Notes under the pieces: model-generated | Told to the model about the DNA's origin: nothing | Database searches by the model: none | The model's input: the letters and a program-made list of their open reading frames with translations, nothing else | Assembly: GCF_009363715.1 (NCBI RefSeq) | Contig: NZ_CP045404.1 | Location: 2,944,001-3,008,000, forward strand | Source: Roseovarius sp. THAF9 | GTDB lineage: Bacteria; Pseudomonadota; Alphaproteobacteria; Rhodobacterales; Rhodobacteraceae | Direction: 5' to 3' | Length of the DNA: 64,000 nt | Part shown: piece after piece, positions 1,229 through 8,499 of the stretch | Layout of the letters: every line of letters begins with the position of its first letter | Position numbering within the stretch: the first letter of the stretch is position 1 | Made by a program: the position numbers and the translations under genes

Positions 1229-2482
1229 TCAATGCGCAAGGATGCTGGCAAAGAACATGTCTTCATCCCGCAAAAGTGTTGCAGTCCAGCCCTCTGAAAA
1301 CCCCGCAAGCGGCGCCGCGACCAAATGCCCGCCCCGCCAGACCGCCGGACTGGCCAAGAGCGACGCCCGTGGCAACCCCGGCTGCACCCGCTCTGCGCAC
1401 TGCGCCAGACCCGCCTCGCCGAGCGCGGCCACCTCGGCCCCATCGGGCCACGGCCCGTCCAGTTGCCAGCGGCCGTCCCACGCCTCACCCGGCGCGGTCC
1501 GCACCTGCGCCACCGCCTTCGGCTCGCGCGAGAACCGCAGTTGATCCGCCCCCACGCTCATCATCACCCCGTGCAAGGTCATGCCGTTGCCACCGCTAAT
1601 CGCCTCCAGCATCAGGTCCACCGCCTTGCCGCGCGGACCGTAATCCGCGCCGCTGATCCAGCGCAGGATCTCCTGCACCATGCGGCGGCAGATGTCGCGT
1701 GGCAGGGTCCGGAAGCCCTTGCACTCGACCATCACGTCGCCCCGGTCGAAACTGACGAGGTTGCGCGCCGCCAGAAAAACATACCAATACAGCGTGCTGC
1801 GCACCTCGCCCAGGTGGCGGGCGACATTGCCCAGCCCCCGCGCGGTCACGCCAAGGTCTTCCAGCGCGGTCAGCGCCTTGCGCACCCGCGCCCGTTCAAA
1901 GGCGTCGTCCTCGTTGGTCGGATCGTCGACCCAAGCCAGACCCTCGTATTCCACCAGCACACGCAGCTCGGCGCGCGACACCTGCAACAGCGGGCGGCGG
2001 AACTCCACCGCGCCCTGCCGCCAGCTTGGCGCCATTGCCGCCAGCCCATCGACCCCCGCCTCGCGCATCAGCCGCATGACAAAGGTCTCGGCCACGTCGT
2101 TCAGCGTATGGCCCAGCGCCACGTCGGTGATCTGCTCCGTCTCGGCCCAGTCCGCGATCAGGCCGTACCGCGCGCGCCGCGCCTGGTCGGGCAGGTTTCC
2201 CGCACCGTCCCAGCCGCGCCATTCCAGCGTCTTGTGCGGAACGTCCAGCCGGGCACAGAGCTCCGCCACGCCCGCCGCCTCATCGCGCGACGCCGCGCGC
2301 AGACCGTGATCCACCGTCACCGCGTAAGGGTCCGGCCCGTCCTGCGCCGCCCACTGCCGGGCCAGCAGCAGCAAGCCCAGCGAATCGCTGCCTCCGGACA
2401 CGGCAATGCCCAGCCGCTTGGGCCGGGCAGTCCCGAATGTCGCCACGAATTGATCAAGAATATGCGCCGTGGGGCTGTTCAC
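1229..2482 (-). CDS. tilS: tRNA(Ile)-lysidine synthase TilS
   Basis: Uses ATP and lysine to convert the wobble C34 of tRNA-Ile(CAU) to lysidine, so that the tRNA reads AUA as isoleucine. The N-terminal PP-loop motif SGGSDS is at residues 29-34, followed by the VDHGLR and GHTLND motifs typical of TilS. The product is 417 aa if started at the GTG at 2482. That GTG overlaps the stop of cpoB as GTGA, suggesting coupled translation. A longer in-frame start at 2572 would run far into cpoB and adds only residues unlike the family. The C-terminal half is less conserved, as is common in alphaproteobacteria. Confidence 0.95.
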   Translation of the reverse strand: MNSPTAHILDQFVATFGTARPKRLGIAVSGGSDSLGLLLLARQWAAQDGPDPYAVTVDHGLRAASRDEAAGVAELCARLDVPHKTLEWRGWDGAGNLPDQARRARYGLIADWAETEQITDVALGHTLNDVAETFVMRLMREAGVDGLAAMAPSWRQGAVEFRRPLLQVSRAELRVLVEYEGLAWVDDPTNEDDAFERARVRKALTALEDLGVTARGLGNVARHLGEVRSTLYWYVFLAARNLVSFDRGDVMVECKGFRTLPRDICRRMVQEILRWISGADYGPRGKAVDLMLEAISGGNGMTLHGVMMSVGADQLRFSREPKAVAQVRTAPGEAWDGRWQLDGPWPDGAEVAALGEAGLAQCAERVQPGLPRASLLASPAVWRGGHLVAAPLAGFSEGWTATLLRDEDMFFASILAH

Positions 2483-3357
2483 GAACACCCAAGGTTCTGC
2501 ATCGCCGAGGCCGCTTGCCCCACCGCGGGCGATTGCGGAAAGCGCTGCGCCACCTCTCCCAGGGTCAGGCAAGCCTCGTTGGTCTGGCCCAGCGCGCCCA
2601 GCGACCGGCCAAGCAGGAACAGCGCCTGCGGCGCTTGCGGGCCGTCCGGCGCGGTGCTGAACGTGTCCAGATAGGCGCGCGCCGCACCCGTCATGTCATT
2701 GGCCTGCTCCAGCGCCTCGCCACGCTTCAGCCCGGCCTGCGCCTCCATCGGGCTGCCGGGATAGTTGGTGGTGAAACGCTCGAACTGCTCGGCCGCGGCG
2801 GCGTACTCGCCCGCCTCGAACGCCGCCATGGCCGTGTCGAAATCGGCCTGCTCGGCCGCGGCCATCTGAACGCCGCTGTCGTTGCCCGTGGTGCCGCCCG
2901 TGGTCGCTGTGCCAGTCGTGTCGGTGGCCGGCGCGGTGCTCGTCGTGCCTTGCCCGGACGTCGACGGCTCGACCCCGCCCAGCGTGTCGCCGGGCTCGAT
3001 GCTGCCGATATCACAGGAAGGCTCCAACTCGCAGATCCGGAATTCCAGGTCGCCCACGCGGTTGGTTCCGTCGGTCACCACGCTGTCGATACGAAACTCC
3101 AGTTCCTCGGTCTTCGAGGTCAGGCGCTGCAACTCGGACTCAATGGTGTTCACCCGGTCCAGCACGCTTCCGCCTACGGTCGCGTTGCCGCTGGCGCCGG
3201 TGGTGTTCAGCTCTCGCTTCAGCTTCTGCAATTCGACATAGAGCACCGATAGCTCCTGCCGGATATCCGCCAGAGTTTCGGTATTGGCCTGGGCCGAGGC
3301 CGCAACCGGCCCCATCCCGAACGCGGCCACCACGAGGCCCAGTATTACACGACGCAT
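2479..3357 (-). CDS. cpoB: Cell division coordinator CpoB (YbgF)
   Basis: Periplasmic TPR protein that links the Tol-Pal system to septal peptidoglycan synthesis. The 292-aa product has a signal peptide ending at ASAQA, a helical coiled-coil segment at about 28-95, a Thr/Gly/Ser-rich linker at about 130-165, and tetratricopeptide repeats from about 170 to the end (DFDTAMAAFEAGEYAAAAEQ). I prefer the ATG at 3357, 5 bases after GGGG; a GTG two codons upstream (3363) is possible. It lies last in the tol cluster, next to pal, and its stop overlaps the tilS start. Confidence 0.93.
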   Translation of the reverse strand: MRRVILGLVVAAFGMGPVAASAQANTETLADIRQELSVLYVELQKLKRELNTTGASGNATVGGSVLDRVNTIESELQRLTSKTEELEFRIDSVVTDGTNRVGDLEFRICELEPSCDIGSIEPGDTLGGVEPSTSGQGTTSTAPATDTTGTATTGGTTGNDSGVQMAAAEQADFDTAMAAFEAGEYAAAAEQFERFTTNYPGSPMEAQAGLKRGEALEQANDMTGAARAYLDTFSTAPDGPQAPQALFLLGRSLGALGQTNEACLTLGEVAQRFPQSPAVGQAASAMQNLGCS

Positions 3358-3376
3358 GTTCACCCCACCATTCGTC

Positions 3377-3892
3377 CTAGCTTGTCGGCACCGCCGAGAT
3401 CACCGTCACGGCGCGGCGGTTCTTGGCATAGCACGCTTCGTTACTGCAGATCTCCAGCGGGCGTTCCTTGCCATAGCTGATGACCTTCAGACGCGCCGGG
3501 CTGACCCCCTTCGAGATCAGGTATTCCTGTACCGCGTTGGCGCGGCGTGCGCCCAGCGCGATGTTGTATTGCCGCGTGCCCTGCTCGTCGGCGTGGCCTT
3601 CGATGATGGCGTTGTATGCCGTGTTCGTGGCCAGCCATTGCGCCTGCCCGTCCAGCGTCGCCGTCGCCGTGGGCGACAGGGTGGACTGGTCCACGGCGAA
3701 CAGAACGCGGTCGCCAATCGTCTGCTGGAAATAGAGCGGCGATTGCGGATCCTGCGCGGTGCCCGCGACGCCGCTTGCCGTGCCGCTGGTGCCCGCGCCG
3801 TTGTTGTATTGATCGCCGAACCGGTCGGGATTGCTGCAGGCGCTCACCGCCAGCCCCGCCACCACGATCAGTGCCTTGCTCAGATGTTTCAT
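3377..3892 (-). CDS. pal: Peptidoglycan-associated lipoprotein Pal
   Basis: Outer-membrane lipoprotein that binds peptidoglycan and TolB and holds the outer membrane to the wall during division. The 171-aa product has a signal peptide with lipobox VSAC and the acylated Cys at residue 19. A short linker is followed by an OmpA-like domain at about 65-165 with the peptidoglycan-binding signature around GHADEQGTRQYNIALGARRA. The length is normal for Pal. It lies between tolB and cpoB. Confidence 0.97.
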   Translation of the reverse strand: MKHLSKALIVVAGLAVSACSNPDRFGDQYNNGAGTSGTASGVAGTAQDPQSPLYFQQTIGDRVLFAVDQSTLSPTATATLDGQAQWLATNTAYNAIIEGHADEQGTRQYNIALGARRANAVQEYLISKGVSPARLKVISYGKERPLEICSNEACYAKNRRAVTVISAVPTS

Positions 3893-3975: not shown

Positions 3976-5304
3976 TCAGTTCTGCAGCGGCCCCCAGGAC
4001 GGATCCGACGCGCCGGTCTCGGTGCGGACCTGCTTGAGGTTGCGCCCGGTGATGTCCACCGACCACAGGCTCGACGTGCCCTGCGCGCCTTGGGTTTCGC
4101 GGGTGAACATGATGACCCGGCCATTGGGGGCCCAAGTCGGGCTCTCGTCCAGGAAGGACGCGGTCAACAGGCGCTCCTCGCTGCCATCGGTGCGCATCAC
4201 GCCGATATGGAACCGGCCTTTGGATTGCTTGGTAAAGGCAATCAGATCGCCGCGCGGCGACCAGACCGGCGTGCCATAACGGCCCTGGCCGAAGCTGATC
4301 CGCGTTGCCTCGCCGCCACTGGCGGGCATCACGTAAAGCTGCGGCGTGCCCGAGCGGTCGGATTCGAACACGATCTTGCTGCCATCCGGGCTAAAACTCG
4401 GCGCGGTCTCGATCGACGGCGTCGTGGTCAGGCGCGAGGTTTGCCCGGACGCGATATTCAACTGGTAAAGGTCGGTGTTGCCGCCCGTGGTCAGGCTATA
4501 GACGATGGTCTGCCCGTTGGGCGCAAAGCGCGGCGCGAAACTCATCTCGCCATCGGCGGCATTCAGCACGTTGCGGCCCGCCGTGGCCACGTCCAGCACG
4601 TAGATCTTGGGAAAGCCGCTTTCATAACTGGTATATAGCACCCGGTCCCCATTGGGCGAGAACCGCGGCGCCAGCACGATCGACGCGCTGTCGGTCAGGT
4701 AGGTCACATTGGCGCCGTCGTAATCCATGATCGCCAGCCGCTTTTGCCGCGCATCCTTTGGCCCGGTTTCGGAGACAAACACGACGCGGCTGTCGAAATA
4801 CGGGTCTTCGCCCGTCAGCCGTGAATACACCTGGTCCGAGACCTTGTGCGCAATGCGCCGCCAGCCATCCACGGTGCCCACGAATTGCAGGCCATCGCCC
4901 ATCTGCTGCCCCGCGAACACGTCATAAAGCCGGAACTTCACGACGACCTTGCCGCTGTCATCCACATTGACGCCACCCACGATCAGCGCCTGCGCGTTGA
5001 TCGCCTTCCAGTCGGCGAACTGCACCGGGCTGGAAAACGCGGTGACGCGCGCGATATGCGCGTCCTGCGGAATTTCGCGGAAAAGACCCGTGCCGGTCAG
5101 GTCGGCGGCGATAACCCGCGTGATATTGGCCGCCATCTCCTGCGCCTGGGCGCTCTCGGCCACGAAATTCGGCACGGCAAAGGGCAAGGGCTCGATCACG
5201 CCCTCGGTGATTTCGATCCTCAGCGGCCCGCTGCGCTCTTCCTGCGCCATCACCGGCGCCGCAAGGCCTGCAAGGATCGCCACAAGGGCCAGAAATACTC
5301 TCAT
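3976..5304 (-). CDS. tolB: Tol-Pal system beta-propeller protein TolB
   Basis: Periplasmic protein that cycles between TolA and Pal. The 442-aa product has a signal peptide ([20 protein letters not shown]), the TolB N-terminal domain (about 30-150), and at least five propeller blades with the repeated pattern P-x-[FW]-[SA]-P-[NRD]-G, for example [20 protein letters not shown] and [10 protein letters not shown]. The ATG at 5304 is chosen because GGGGAG stands 7 bases upstream; an in-frame ATG at 5325 precedes this site and would add seven residues before the signal peptide. The gene begins one base after the stop of the TolA-domain paralogue. Confidence 0.97.
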
Positions 5305-5305
5305 G

Positions 5306-5668
5306 TCACTGCTCCCCTTCGACACCTGGGTCGAATGTCATTTCTATCTCGCGCCACGCCTCGTACTGATCGGCTGGCAGGTCATACCCGTCGCGCCCGC
5401 ATCTCAGGATGGCACGTGGCGCCACCATGAAAGAGTCCGTGTCGGACATTTCACGGGGAATTGAGCGCAGGCTTTCGTCAATCACGGTGCCATCCCGGTC
5501 CATCTTGAACGCTACGGTGACAACCGCGCCGCCCTCGGCCGGGTTCCAGCAGCGCTGTACGTCCTCGCGAAACCCGTCGATCCAGTCGGATGCCTGCGCC
5601 CCGGACACCGCCGCCGGGGCCAAAAGACCCGCCAGCACCGCCCCACCAATGATACCGTGCCGTTTCAT
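5306..5668 (-). CDS. Small secreted paralogue of the TolA C-terminal domain
   Basis: A 120-aa protein with a signal peptide (about 1-26, cleavage near GAQA-S) and a single domain that aligns with the C-terminal 100 residues of the adjacent TolA. Shared features are VQ-x-CWN at the start, R-x-RCG-x-x-GYDLP, and [11 protein letters not shown][DN]-P at the end, with both cysteines kept (Cys40 and Cys90 here, Cys296 and Cys355 in TolA). It has no membrane anchor and no long periplasmic arm. Its start (ATG 5668) overlaps the tolA stop as ATGA, and tolB follows after one base, so it is part of the tol operon. It probably arose by partial duplication of tolA. A role in binding TolB or modulating TolA is inference. 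Confidence 0.9.
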
Positions 5669-6822
5669 CGGATCCGCATGTTCTCCGGGTTGAAGGTCAT
5701 TTCGATCTCGCGCCATGTCGCGTATTTCTCGACCGGCAGGTCATATCCCCGCGCCCCGCAACGGATGATCGCCCGCCGCGCGGCCTCGAACGCTTGCTGT
5801 GCCGAGGAATTGCTGCCCCCCTCGCTGCTGATCATGCGGATCGAGTTCGTGACCGGGCGGCCATCCTCGGACATCGACACCGCCACCGTCACCGTGGTCG
5901 CCAGCGCGTCGGAACTCAGCGAGCCGACGTTCCAGCATTCCTGCACCGCCACGCGCAGCCCGTCCTTTTCCCCGGCGGTCAGCGGCGGGCCCTGCGGCGT
6001 GCCCTGCGATTGCGTGTCGGCGCCCAGCGCCTCGGCCAGCGCGTCGTTCACGGCCGAGCTGTCGGGGCTGGTGGCCTGCTGCGTCTCTGGTTCGGGGTCG
6101 GCCTGCTGCGCAGGCTCCTCGCGCGGCTCCGGGTCCGGGTCGGGCTGTGCCGCCGGTGTCGGCTGTTCGGGCCGCGTGCGCGGCCGGACCGAGCGTGTCG
6201 GCGCCGCAGAAGCGACTTCCTCGGCCTCGGTCACGATCTCGGTCGTGGCCTCCTGCCGGGCGGTTTCCTCCTGCTCAGGCGTCGGCTCCTCGGCCTGCTC
6301 CGAGGGCTCGGGGGCCTCTTGGTCCACGTCAGCGATCTCGACATCCGGCTCGGGCTGTTCCACCGCCTCGGGAGCGACACGCGGCGCGGGCCGGGGCTGC
6401 GGGCGATCCGACTGTTCGGGCGCCAGAACGGCGGTATCTTCCTGCGGCGGCGTCGGCTCCTGCGGCGCGTCGGCGATCTCGGCCTCCGGAACGGGCACCG
6501 GCTCGGGCTCGACGGCCTCGGGCACCGGGTCCGGCTCGGTACTCTCGGTCACTTCGGGCTGGTCCTGCTCGGGGGCCGTATCGGGCTCGGATGACAGTTC
6601 CGGCGCCTGCCCTTCCTCGGGCGGCTCGGGCGTGTCGACATTGGCGACCGCATCCGGCGACGGCTCGGCAACCATCGCGGCGTATTCCTCTTCCGAGACC
6701 GCCGTCACCTCGGTCACCTCGAACGGCAACGGCTCGGACTGAAACGCCCCGCCGAAGATGGCAAAGACGATCAGGCCCGTATGGGCCACACCGGAAATGA
6801 TCTGCCCGGTGTCCAGCCGCAT
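5665..6822 (-). CDS. tolA: Cell envelope integrity protein TolA
   Basis: Inner-membrane protein that transmits proton-motive force from TolQR to TolB/Pal. The 385-aa product has one membrane segment at about 12-30, a long arm at about 35-285, and a C-terminal domain at about 285-385 with Cys296 and Cys355. The arm is extremely rich in Pro, Glu, Gln and Thr (for example ATSPDSSAVN, and many PE/PEP repeats) instead of the Lys/Ala-rich helix of enterobacterial TolA. The ATG at 6822 follows the tolR stop by one base; an in-frame TTG at 6843 would lie inside tolR and is less likely. Confidence 0.93.
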   Translation of the reverse strand: MRLDTGQIISGVAHTGLIVFAIFGGAFQSEPLPFEVTEVTAVSEEEYAAMVAEPSPDAVANVDTPEPPEEGQAPELSSEPDTAPEQDQPEVTESTEPDPVPEAVEPEPVPVPEAEIADAPQEPTPPQEDTAVLAPEQSDRPQPRPAPRVAPEAVEQPEPDVEIADVDQEAPEPSEQAEEPTPEQEETARQEATTEIVTEAEEVASAAPTRSVRPRTRPEQPTPAAQPDPDPEPREEPAQQADPEPETQQATSPDSSAVNDALAEALGADTQSQGTPQGPPLTAGEKDGLRVAVQECWNVGSLSSDALATTVTVAVSMSEDGRPVTNSIRMISSEGGSNSSAQQAFEAARRAIIRCGARGYDLPVEKYATWREIEMTFNPENMRIR

Positions 6823-6823
6823 C

Positions 6824-7297
6824 TCAGCCGCCCTGCTCGTCAAGCGTGGGACCGCCGGTATCCGTCACCAGCCCGATATTGGCGAACCCGCCGCGATTGA
6901 GCGCGCCCATCACCTGCATCACGTCTGAATAGGGCACCGCCCCGTCCGCCCGCAGGAACACCCGCGTGCTGTCACGCTCCGTCGCGATGGCGCGCAGCCG
7001 GTTCACCAGCTCGCCGCGCTGCACCTCGGTGGTCTGAATCATCACGACTCCCTCGGCGGTCAGCGTCACGGTCAGCGGCTCTTCTTCCTCGCCCGGCAGC
7101 GCATTGGCCGCGGTCTCGGGCAGTTGCACCGGCACGCCCACGGTCATCAGCGGCGCGGCCACCATAAAGATGATCAGCAGCACCAGCATCACGTCCACAA
7201 AGGGCGTGACGTTGATCTCGGCCATCGGCCGGCTGCGGCCCCGGCCTCTGCGCCTGCGGCCCGTGTCACCTGATTTCTGAACGACGCCCGCACCCAT
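6824..7297 (-). CDS. tolR: Biopolymer transporter TolR (ExbD family)
   Basis: Partner of TolQ in the proton-driven motor that energises TolA. The 157-aa product has an Arg-rich N-terminal tail (RRRRGRGRSR), the family motif MAEINVTPFVDVMLVLLIIF with the conserved membrane Asp (in FVDVML), one membrane segment, and a periplasmic domain. The start at 7297 overlaps nothing but stands one base after the tolQ stop. Gene order tolQ-tolR-tolA is standard. Confidence 0.96.
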   Translation of the reverse strand: MGAGVVQKSGDTGRRRRGRGRSRPMAEINVTPFVDVMLVLLIIFMVAAPLMTVGVPVQLPETAANALPGEEEEPLTVTLTAEGVVMIQTTEVQRGELVNRLRAIATERDSTRVFLRADGAVPYSDVMQVMGALNRGGFANIGLVTDTGGPTLDEQGG

Positions 7298-7298
7298 G

Positions 7299-7994
7299 TC
7301 AGCTGTCCAATTGCCGACTTAGGATCGTCGCGAATTCGTCGGCAAACGCTTCGTAGCTGGCCACGATCCGATCGGCATCCGCACTCAGCTTGTTGTAGAA
7401 CACCACCGCCGGAATGGCCGCCAGCAGGCCCAGACCCGTCGCCAGAAGCGCCTCCGCGATGCCCGGCGCCACGACAGCGAGGTTGGTGTTCTGCTGCTCG
7501 GCGATCTCGATAAAGGCGTTCATGATCCCCCAGACCGTGCCAAAGAGGCCCACAAAAGGCGACACCGACCCGATCGAGGCCAGAATTGTCAGTCCGCTCT
7601 GCAACTTCTCGCTTTCCTTCACGATGGCCACGTCCATGCTGCGGTCGATCCGCGCCGTGGCCCCCGCGATCAGCGCCCCGTCGGTGCGGTGCGACCGCCG
7701 CCATTCGCTCATGCCGGCGGCAAAAACGCGCTCGGATTGTCCCGCCGGGTCGGGTCCGATCTCGTCGAAGAGCTCATCCAACGGCTCACCCGACCAGAAG
7801 CGCCGGTCGAACGCCTCCGCCTCGGCGCGCGCCTTGCGATAGGTGATGGTCTTCTGGATGATGATCGACCACGCCCAGAAGGACGCCACGATCAGCATCA
7901 GCATCACCAGTTTCACGATAAGCGTCGCGCGTGCGAACAATCCCCACAGCGAGAAATCAATCTCCTGTGCCATTGCCAGGGTTTCTGCTTCCAT
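7299..7994 (-). CDS. tolQ: Protein TolQ (ExbB/MotA family proton channel)
   Basis: Three-pass inner-membrane protein forming the TolQ-TolR proton channel. The 231-aa product has membrane segments at about 20-45, 140-165 and 178-200, with the family signatures GLFGTVWGIMNAF and GIAEALLATGLGLLAAIPAV. The length is normal. It is the first gene of the tight tolQ-R-A block; ybgC lies 115 bases upstream on the same strand. Confidence 0.96.
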   Translation of the reverse strand: MEAETLAMAQEIDFSLWGLFARATLIVKLVMLMLIVASFWAWSIIIQKTITYRKARAEAEAFDRRFWSGEPLDELFDEIGPDPAGQSERVFAAGMSEWRRSHRTDGALIAGATARIDRSMDVAIVKESEKLQSGLTILASIGSVSPFVGLFGTVWGIMNAFIEIAEQQNTNLAVVAPGIAEALLATGLGLLAAIPAVVFYNKLSADADRIVASYEAFADEFATILSRQLDS

Positions 7995-8109: not shown

Positions 8110-8499
8110 TCAATGCAGCATCAGGCGGATATTTGCCGGTAGCCGCGCCGGGTGGCCGGTCTCGTTGATGCACACGATGGTCACCTGCGCCGAAAAGATC
8201 AGCTCTTCACCGCGCAGGACATGCTGATCCATGACAAGCCGGGCGCCAGTGACCGTGGTCACGCTGGTCCGCACCTCAAGCTCGTCGTCGAACTTGGCCG
8301 GGTGATGATAGTCCGCCTCGACCCGCCGCACGGCGAACACCACGCCATCGTCGCGCCGCATCGCATTCTGGTCGACGCCAAGGCCCCGCACCCAGTCGCT
8401 GCGCGCACGTTCTATGTACCTGAGGTAATTGGCATAATAGACGATCCCTGCCATGTCGGTATCTTCGTAATATACGCGGATGGGAAACGTATGGACCAT
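8110..8499 (-). CDS. ybgC: Tol-Pal-associated acyl-CoA thioesterase YbgC
   Basis: Hot-dog fold thioesterase found with tol genes in most proteobacteria; it hydrolyses short to medium acyl-CoA or acyl-ACP and has been linked to phospholipid metabolism. The 129-aa product contains the catalytic signature YYEDTDMAGIVYYANYLRY with the active Asp at about residue 15, then ERARSDW. It lies 115 bases upstream of tolQ on the same strand. Confidence 0.95.
   Translation of the reverse strand: MVHTFPIRVYYEDTDMAGIVYYANYLRYIERARSDWVRGLGVDQNAMRRDDGVVFAVRRVEADYHHPAKFDDELEVRTSVTTVTGARLVMDQHVLRGEELIFSAQVTIVCINETGHPARLPANIRLMLH

Follow-up and report, generated by a model that had tools for sequence, protein, structure and literature searches.

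A stand-alone gene for TolA domain III in the tolA-tolB gap of Roseovarius sp. THAF9 and its possible role as a decoy

Bacteriocins and filamentous phages take hold of the Tol motor, which is hard for the cell to lose, at TolA domain III; CpoB (YbgF) is an accessory exported protein of the tol operon. This study was concerned with a free copy of TolA domain III encoded between tolA and tolB at 5306..5668 (minus strand) of a 64,000-nucleotide stretch of Roseovarius sp. THAF9 (NZ_CP045404.1, positions 2,944,001 to 3,008,000), referred to as the window. According to the accessible parts of PMC4339652 and PMC7391070, the edge of strand beta3 of TolA takes TolB, g3p and ColN by strand addition.

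The free protein differs from TolA itself (TIGR02794, PF06519) in having no motor helix, no domain II and a signal-like start of its own. Enterobacterial plasmid and phage proteins named "TolA C-terminal domain-containing protein" or "cell envelope integrity protein TolA" (for example, WP_001237044 in L205 and VUF53968 of phage mEp460_ev081) are likewise small domain III proteins without arm or anchor. However, these carry lipoboxes and are encoded on mobile elements away from tol, some of them on bacteriocin plasmids, whereas the Roseovarius gene is chromosomal, lies in the tol operon and has no lipobox. The C-terminal domains of TonB and HasB (TonB_2, PF13103) resemble the free protein in structure less than TolA does and belong to another operon. 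CpoB/YbgF is of another family and is encoded separately (2479..3363, minus strand; TIGR02795 over the cut-off, start provisional). In the literature searched, no description of a free TolA domain in the tolA-tolB gap was found, but this search left most subscription papers outside and is no proof of novelty; the accessible text of the operon section of PMC12204202 makes no mention of one.

The free gene encodes 120 amino acids plus a stop, a frame supported by its translation and by orthologues. As the preliminary description of this DNA had stated, the protein has a signal-like start and copies the C-terminal domain of the adjacent TolA. In a search of its own genome, TolA matched residues 30-114 with 51% identity (E-value 1.2e-18), and the other match among those listed was weak (E-value 0.033). 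Both cysteines and the motifs VQ-x-CWN, RCG-x-x-GYDLP and WREIEMTF, also claimed earlier, are seen in both translations. The signal-like N-terminus comprises residues 1-26 (5591..5668), with the cut AQA^S placed by eye and not by SignalP. It leads directly into the TolA domain III-like domain, residues 28-114 (5327..5587), with cysteines C40 and C90, and the N-terminal motor anchor and the long periplasmic domain II are missing. The last strand in the predicted secondary structure, residues 107-112 (5333..5350), would by its position be the counterpart of the TolA beta3 edge that accepts ligands. The start overlaps the tolA stop by ATGA (5665..5668), and the TGA stop (5306-5308) is separated by the single base 5305 from the tolB ATG (5302-5304), in agreement with the earlier account. 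In profile searches, TIGR02794 (tolA_full, NCBIfam) matched residues 24-114 (E-value 1.1e-4, 21.6 bits) below its cut-off of 59.45 bits, which the real TolA of the window missed too, and Pfam gave TonB_2 alone (E-value 0.037). PF06519 (TolA) matched neither the free protein nor anything else in the whole genome (G000). This family appears blind to the clade, because most own-family genomes were listed without a match either, and it says little about absence, because it matched in only 83 of 398 genomes. The preliminary description had pointed to the fold and to the relatives as places where the identification might fail; the predicted fold matches TolA domain III, and the gene is present in relatives. 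Sequence, synteny and predicted fold thus make it almost certain that this gene of the tol operon encodes a paralogue of TolA domain III with a signal-like start. This identity holds, whereas the roles proposed with it remain inference. Judging by its N-terminus, the protein is very probably exported.

The explanation favored here, to which we give as a whole a probability of about one half, is that the 3' end of tolA was duplicated and kept in place between tolA and tolB and that the exported product competes for the peptides that dock on TolA domain III. The gene would be translated by coupling to tolA and the product exported by its own signal peptide, as a TolA domain III that lacks both the membrane anchor (domain I) and the periplasm-spanning arm (domain II). 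Because it has neither anchor nor arm, the free domain could present the ligand-binding edge but could not pull or transmit force. It would bind such peptides by beta-strand addition and keep them off the motor. That it mimics a TolA ligand site is on balance probable. The ligand of first choice would be an invader, a Tol-dependent phage or bacteriocin, which would make the protein a decoy, a role that is put forward tentatively; TolB would be the second choice. The pattern described below, a patchy distribution with repeated origin or re-copying, signal-like starts, a retained core and rapid change, fits a decoy better than a core regulator or adaptor. A free, repeatedly made and apparently exported copy would serve either as a decoy of the cell's own making or as a natural rival of the Tol motor, and either reading makes the protection or tuning of Tol-Pal by the cell testable by one gene deletion in a marine bacterium not known as a pathogen.

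Occurrence was assessed in genus, family and class samples. The 84 genomes of the genus sample gave 82 measurable loci, as G033 had no TolA match and the contig of G017 ended before tolB. A second domain lay in the tolA-tolB gap at seven of these loci, namely in the window's genome and its orthologues (G000, G066, G006, G083, G012), in G086 (185 amino acids) and as a remnant in G002. Same-place copies in four other Roseovarius genomes have 88, 71, 67 and 62% identity, which puts the free gene beyond chance; the 88% copy is on NZ_PPFE01000004 (putative Roseovarius confluentis) and the 71% copy on NZ_LAXJ01000007 (putative R. atlanticus). An unlinked second match in G018 (C389, E-value 2e-4) carries an in-frame TGA. 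The family sample of 394 genomes was searched by sequence and by profile. At least two profile matches were present in 30 genomes, and by position and frame 19 of these have a copy in the tolA-tolB gap (G000, G109, G132, G139, G170, G227, G240, G251, G380, G390, G417, G418, G426, G452, G467, G472, G484, G488 and G491). In G380 the upstream domain is cut by the contig start and its tolA is therefore presumed; the G227 product is 452 amino acids long. Left out of the 19 were G111, with three long tandem TolA-like frames, G308 and G487, which are contig-edge pieces, and G114, G183, G306, G378, G403, G421, G473 and G496, in which the second match is elsewhere. The G111 frames (L113, L122) stand in tandem ahead of tolB; in G484 (L107, L115) tolA is followed by another long TolA-like gene, whose domain is degenerate, then by the copy with its signal-like start and finally by tolB. 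The class sample held 385 genomes, 5 of the own family and 380 others. Two matches were found in 15 non-family genomes, and 5 of the 380 show the same arrangement of tolA, free gene and tolB (G556, G670 and G762 of one genus, G729 and G734); these outside-family counts are lower limits because profile A2 was built from one family. The other doubles include two long TolA-like genes in tandem in G658 and second matches that are long, unlinked or at contig edges in G540, G651, G720 and G764. They also include unlinked TolA-domain proteins in shorter frames of other Alphaproteobacteria: L147 (G711), L143 (G776), L149 (G513), L157 (G811) and L154 (G775).

The anatomy of 30 tolA-tolB copies was compared (7 from Roseovarius, 18 from other family genera, 5 from outside the family). 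The chosen free start was at -1 relative to the upstream stop in 26 copies and at +2 in four, counts that lean towards overlap because the free start nearest to the tolA stop was chosen. For G484 the middle gene supplied the stop. The -1 starts of G670 and G762 are doubtful GTG codons, each followed by an ATG about 18 bases further on. The start of tolB overlaps the free stop in 10 of the 30 (nine at -1, plus G002) and is at +4 in the five Roseovarius orthologues and +7 in G251. It lies 63-181 bases past the free stop in the other 14 (G418, G484, G452, G139, G472, G488, G390, G467, G380, G491, G417, G132, G426 and G109). All 30 copies have a signal-like start, compared with 42 of the window's 168 long ATG frames, by a simple rule of hydropathy plus a small residue that was written after the sequences were seen. 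Clear lipoboxes occur in G734 (LMLGC-S, L155:1803-2264) and G556 (LLAGC-S, L153:1767-2252), which are possibly lipoproteins; the lipobox that the rule flags in G491 is doubtful. At least two cysteines are present in 28 of the 31 free domains of the tree set described below, and the remaining three and their TolAs have none. In G418 (L116/L110), TolA domain III has lost its cysteines and the neighboring free copy keeps two.

Several observations weigh against the competitor explanation. First, 75 of the 82 measurable Roseovarius loci have a single TolA domain and no free gene, so the gene is dispensable. Secondly, some copies look damaged: the G002 frame is 76 amino acids long, lacks the domain core and overlaps at both ends, and the middle of the G109 copy looks frame-shifted. 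Third, the ratio of nonsynonymous to synonymous substitution rates (dN/dS) of the free domain, pairwise among the five orthologues, is 0.27-0.94 with a median of about 0.6 (0.63-0.94 in pairs with G012). This median is about ten times that of the domain of tolA itself (0.03-0.09; TolB, 0.04-0.08), which indicates weak constraint; dS is broadly alike in the free gene and in TolA/TolB, with the G000-G066 pair lower in the free gene. Fourth, the free protein had no match in phage or plasmid records, and several plasmid analogues have no bacteriocin neighbor in the stretch viewed. Lastly, the TolB N-terminus of carriers resembles that of non-carriers, which decides nothing.

These data may also be compatible with a nearly neutral leftover in Roseovarius. 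On this account junction duplicates are frequent, and they stay open only since ribosomes must reach tolB by coupling, with a protein that does little. The dN/dS of up to 0.94, the lack of the gene in most species and the G002 remnant favor it, as does the likely tolB Shine-Dalgarno, AGGGGAG (5312..5318), within the last codons of the free gene, where GGGGAGCAGTGA is common to the orthologues of five species. However, the signal-like starts in all 30 copies speak against it, and among the five orthologues the columns conserved in 11 TolA rows changed less than the others (12/33 versus 35/54, p 0.014). Coupling is also unneeded in 13 of the 30 genomes, whose tolB starts 63-181 bases past the free stop. 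The chance of a frame staying open without selection over a branch of 0.2 substitutions per site is about 0.17, so five open frames are jointly unlikely without selection, although coupling alone could still keep them open. In the genus of G556, G670 and G762, dN/dS is 0.17-0.24 for the free domain and 0.01-0.12 for the TolA domain (dS 0.49-2.03, the higher values being rough). Judged from these substitutions, constraint is real yet weak in Roseovarius and firmer in other lineages. The account of a nearly neutral leftover is on the whole unlikely.

A role as TolB titrator or regulator, in which the free domain would fill the TolA box at the N-terminus of TolB and tune the frequency with which TolB is pulled off Pal by TolA, is no likelier. 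The gene is placed between tolA and tolB with overlap, and the W..(IV)EMTF end is retained with small changes in the five Roseovarius orthologues, its F being invariant in the 30-row and 50-row alignments; in E. coli TolA the equivalent strand is where TolB binds, according to what is accessible of PMC4339652. A regulator of a conserved machine should itself be conserved, yet this gene occurs in 19 of the 394 family genomes and changes rapidly. The protein would have to be abundant, because binding between TolA III and TolB is weak (dissociation constant about 40-200 µM in the accessible text of PMC7391070), and the TolB N-termini of carriers do not differ.

The competitor explanation includes the duplication of tolA in place, and repeated origin or re-copying of the free domain is strongly suggested by tree and tail comparisons. 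The domain tree had 97 rows (31 free, 66 TolA) and about 106 columns, its bootstrap not settled and its branches long; the truncated G002_F was left out. The five orthologues group in a single clade (100/100) and the TolAs of the same genomes in another (100/98), and the label free or TolA changes 17 times, at least six of them by starred branches. The preliminary description had proposed comparing the phylogenies of the paralogue and the TolA domain: the free copies form one group in 0 of 200 bootstrap trees, and forcing 26 free rows together costs 172 log-likelihood units (approximately unbiased (AU) test, p 0.00034; G380_F, G380_A, G227_F, G227_A, G484_M, G452_F and G109_F removed). The G556, G670 and G762 genes of both kinds cluster together. 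The C-terminal tails are closer to the own TolA than to other TolAs, a result reached in 0 of 20,000 permutations with n=26, which had G658 and used the G484 middle gene, and in repeats without G658 and with the real G484 TolA (n=25), then without G086 and G002 (n=23). For example, FDPSKMFGQ ends both G729 genes.

A single ancient paralogue with many losses and occasional overwriting by gene conversion from tolA, instead of repeated births, is distinctly improbable. Gene conversion can mimic independent origin in trees, and in G086 (L051) the last 59 residues are identical in the free protein and its own TolA while the front has diverged, which looks like conversion; thus part of the origin signal may be conversion and not birth. 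The similar place and overlap of the copies also suit this account. However, the single clade is rejected, and in G734, G491 and G086 the free copy is the starred sister of its own TolA, a signal that conversion would also give. In addition, non-carrier gaps leave no room for a remnant domain: at the 75 Roseovarius loci a homologous TolB start lies at most 60 bases past the tolA stop in 72, and at 62, 109 and 121 bases in the others.

The signal peptide might have been taken from tolB if a duplication across the junction had joined the tolB start to the end of tolA in one event. This idea is unsupported in general, since own free/TolB pairs were no better than swapped pairs (26 genomes, p 0.31; with one tolB start corrected and one unsuitable pair dropped, 4718/20,000 permutations with n=25 and 5266/20,000 with n=23). 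In four of the five Roseovarius orthologues the own pair is equalled by TolB signals of that clade only; in G006 it is equalled by seven others too.

A move of the domain to a new partner as an adaptor (for example, to a TonB-dependent receptor or divisome protein) that no longer competes with TolA is very unlikely, for although the surface and tail have diverged (DPGVEGEQ versus NPENMRIR in the own TolA) and the lipoboxes of G734 and G556 could seat those copies on a membrane, the operon in the window holds no extra partner gene, with no search made for partners elsewhere.

The enterobacterial mobile copies may parallel the decoy idea by analogy, not as proof. Small second copies occur in some Gammaproteobacteria (PF06519 search). 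Matches to small TolA-domain genes are present in 556 plasmid records of Escherichia, which qualifies the statement in the preliminary description that E. coli has no such gene. The L197 gene has matches in 1,328 of 72,556 plasmid records, of which 299 span 80% or more of its length, and in 1 of 50,697 phage records. A lipobox was seen by eye in 7 of the 10 small genes viewed, including L197, L199 and L200, and is absent in three of G938. These three near-identical PF06519 genes (L198, L202, L203) lie within about 27 kb and more than 200 kb from the tolA-like match. On two Klebsiella plasmids, a TolA-domain gene overlaps a TonB-family gene (L205:851-1584, NZ_CP040836; L208:788-1521, CP139241), and both plasmids carry colicin E3-like immunity and lysis genes. 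In L205, the one translated, the TonB-family product is small with a signal-like start and its TolA-domain partner is a predicted lipoprotein. The pair looks like motor-less mimics of two machines that bacteriocins use. Another plasmid TolA-domain gene is near an ABC/HlyD exporter that we interpret as microcin-type, and PMC10269471, in its accessible part, mentions a TolA protein on one cloacin plasmid and gives no function for it. That motor-less exported TolA III copies are general anti-parasite decoys, whether derived from tolA in place, carried as plasmid or phage lipoproteins or joined by a TonB domain on klebicin plasmids, is doubtful. If true, they would sequester the peptides that Tol-dependent bacteriocins and filamentous phages use for translocation.

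The surrounding operon, on the minus strand, has the standard tol-pal set plus the extra gene, in the order ybgC, tolQ, tolR, tolA, free gene, tolB, pal and cpoB. The tolA gene is at 5665..6822, with domain III at about 5668-6012 and the start MRLDTG picked by comparison. Matches over the cut-off were obtained for tolB (3976..5304, TIGR02800, 450 bits), tolR (6824..7297, TIGR02801), tolQ (7299..7994, TIGR02796), ybgC (8110..8499, TIGR02799) and pal (3377..3892, TIGR02802).
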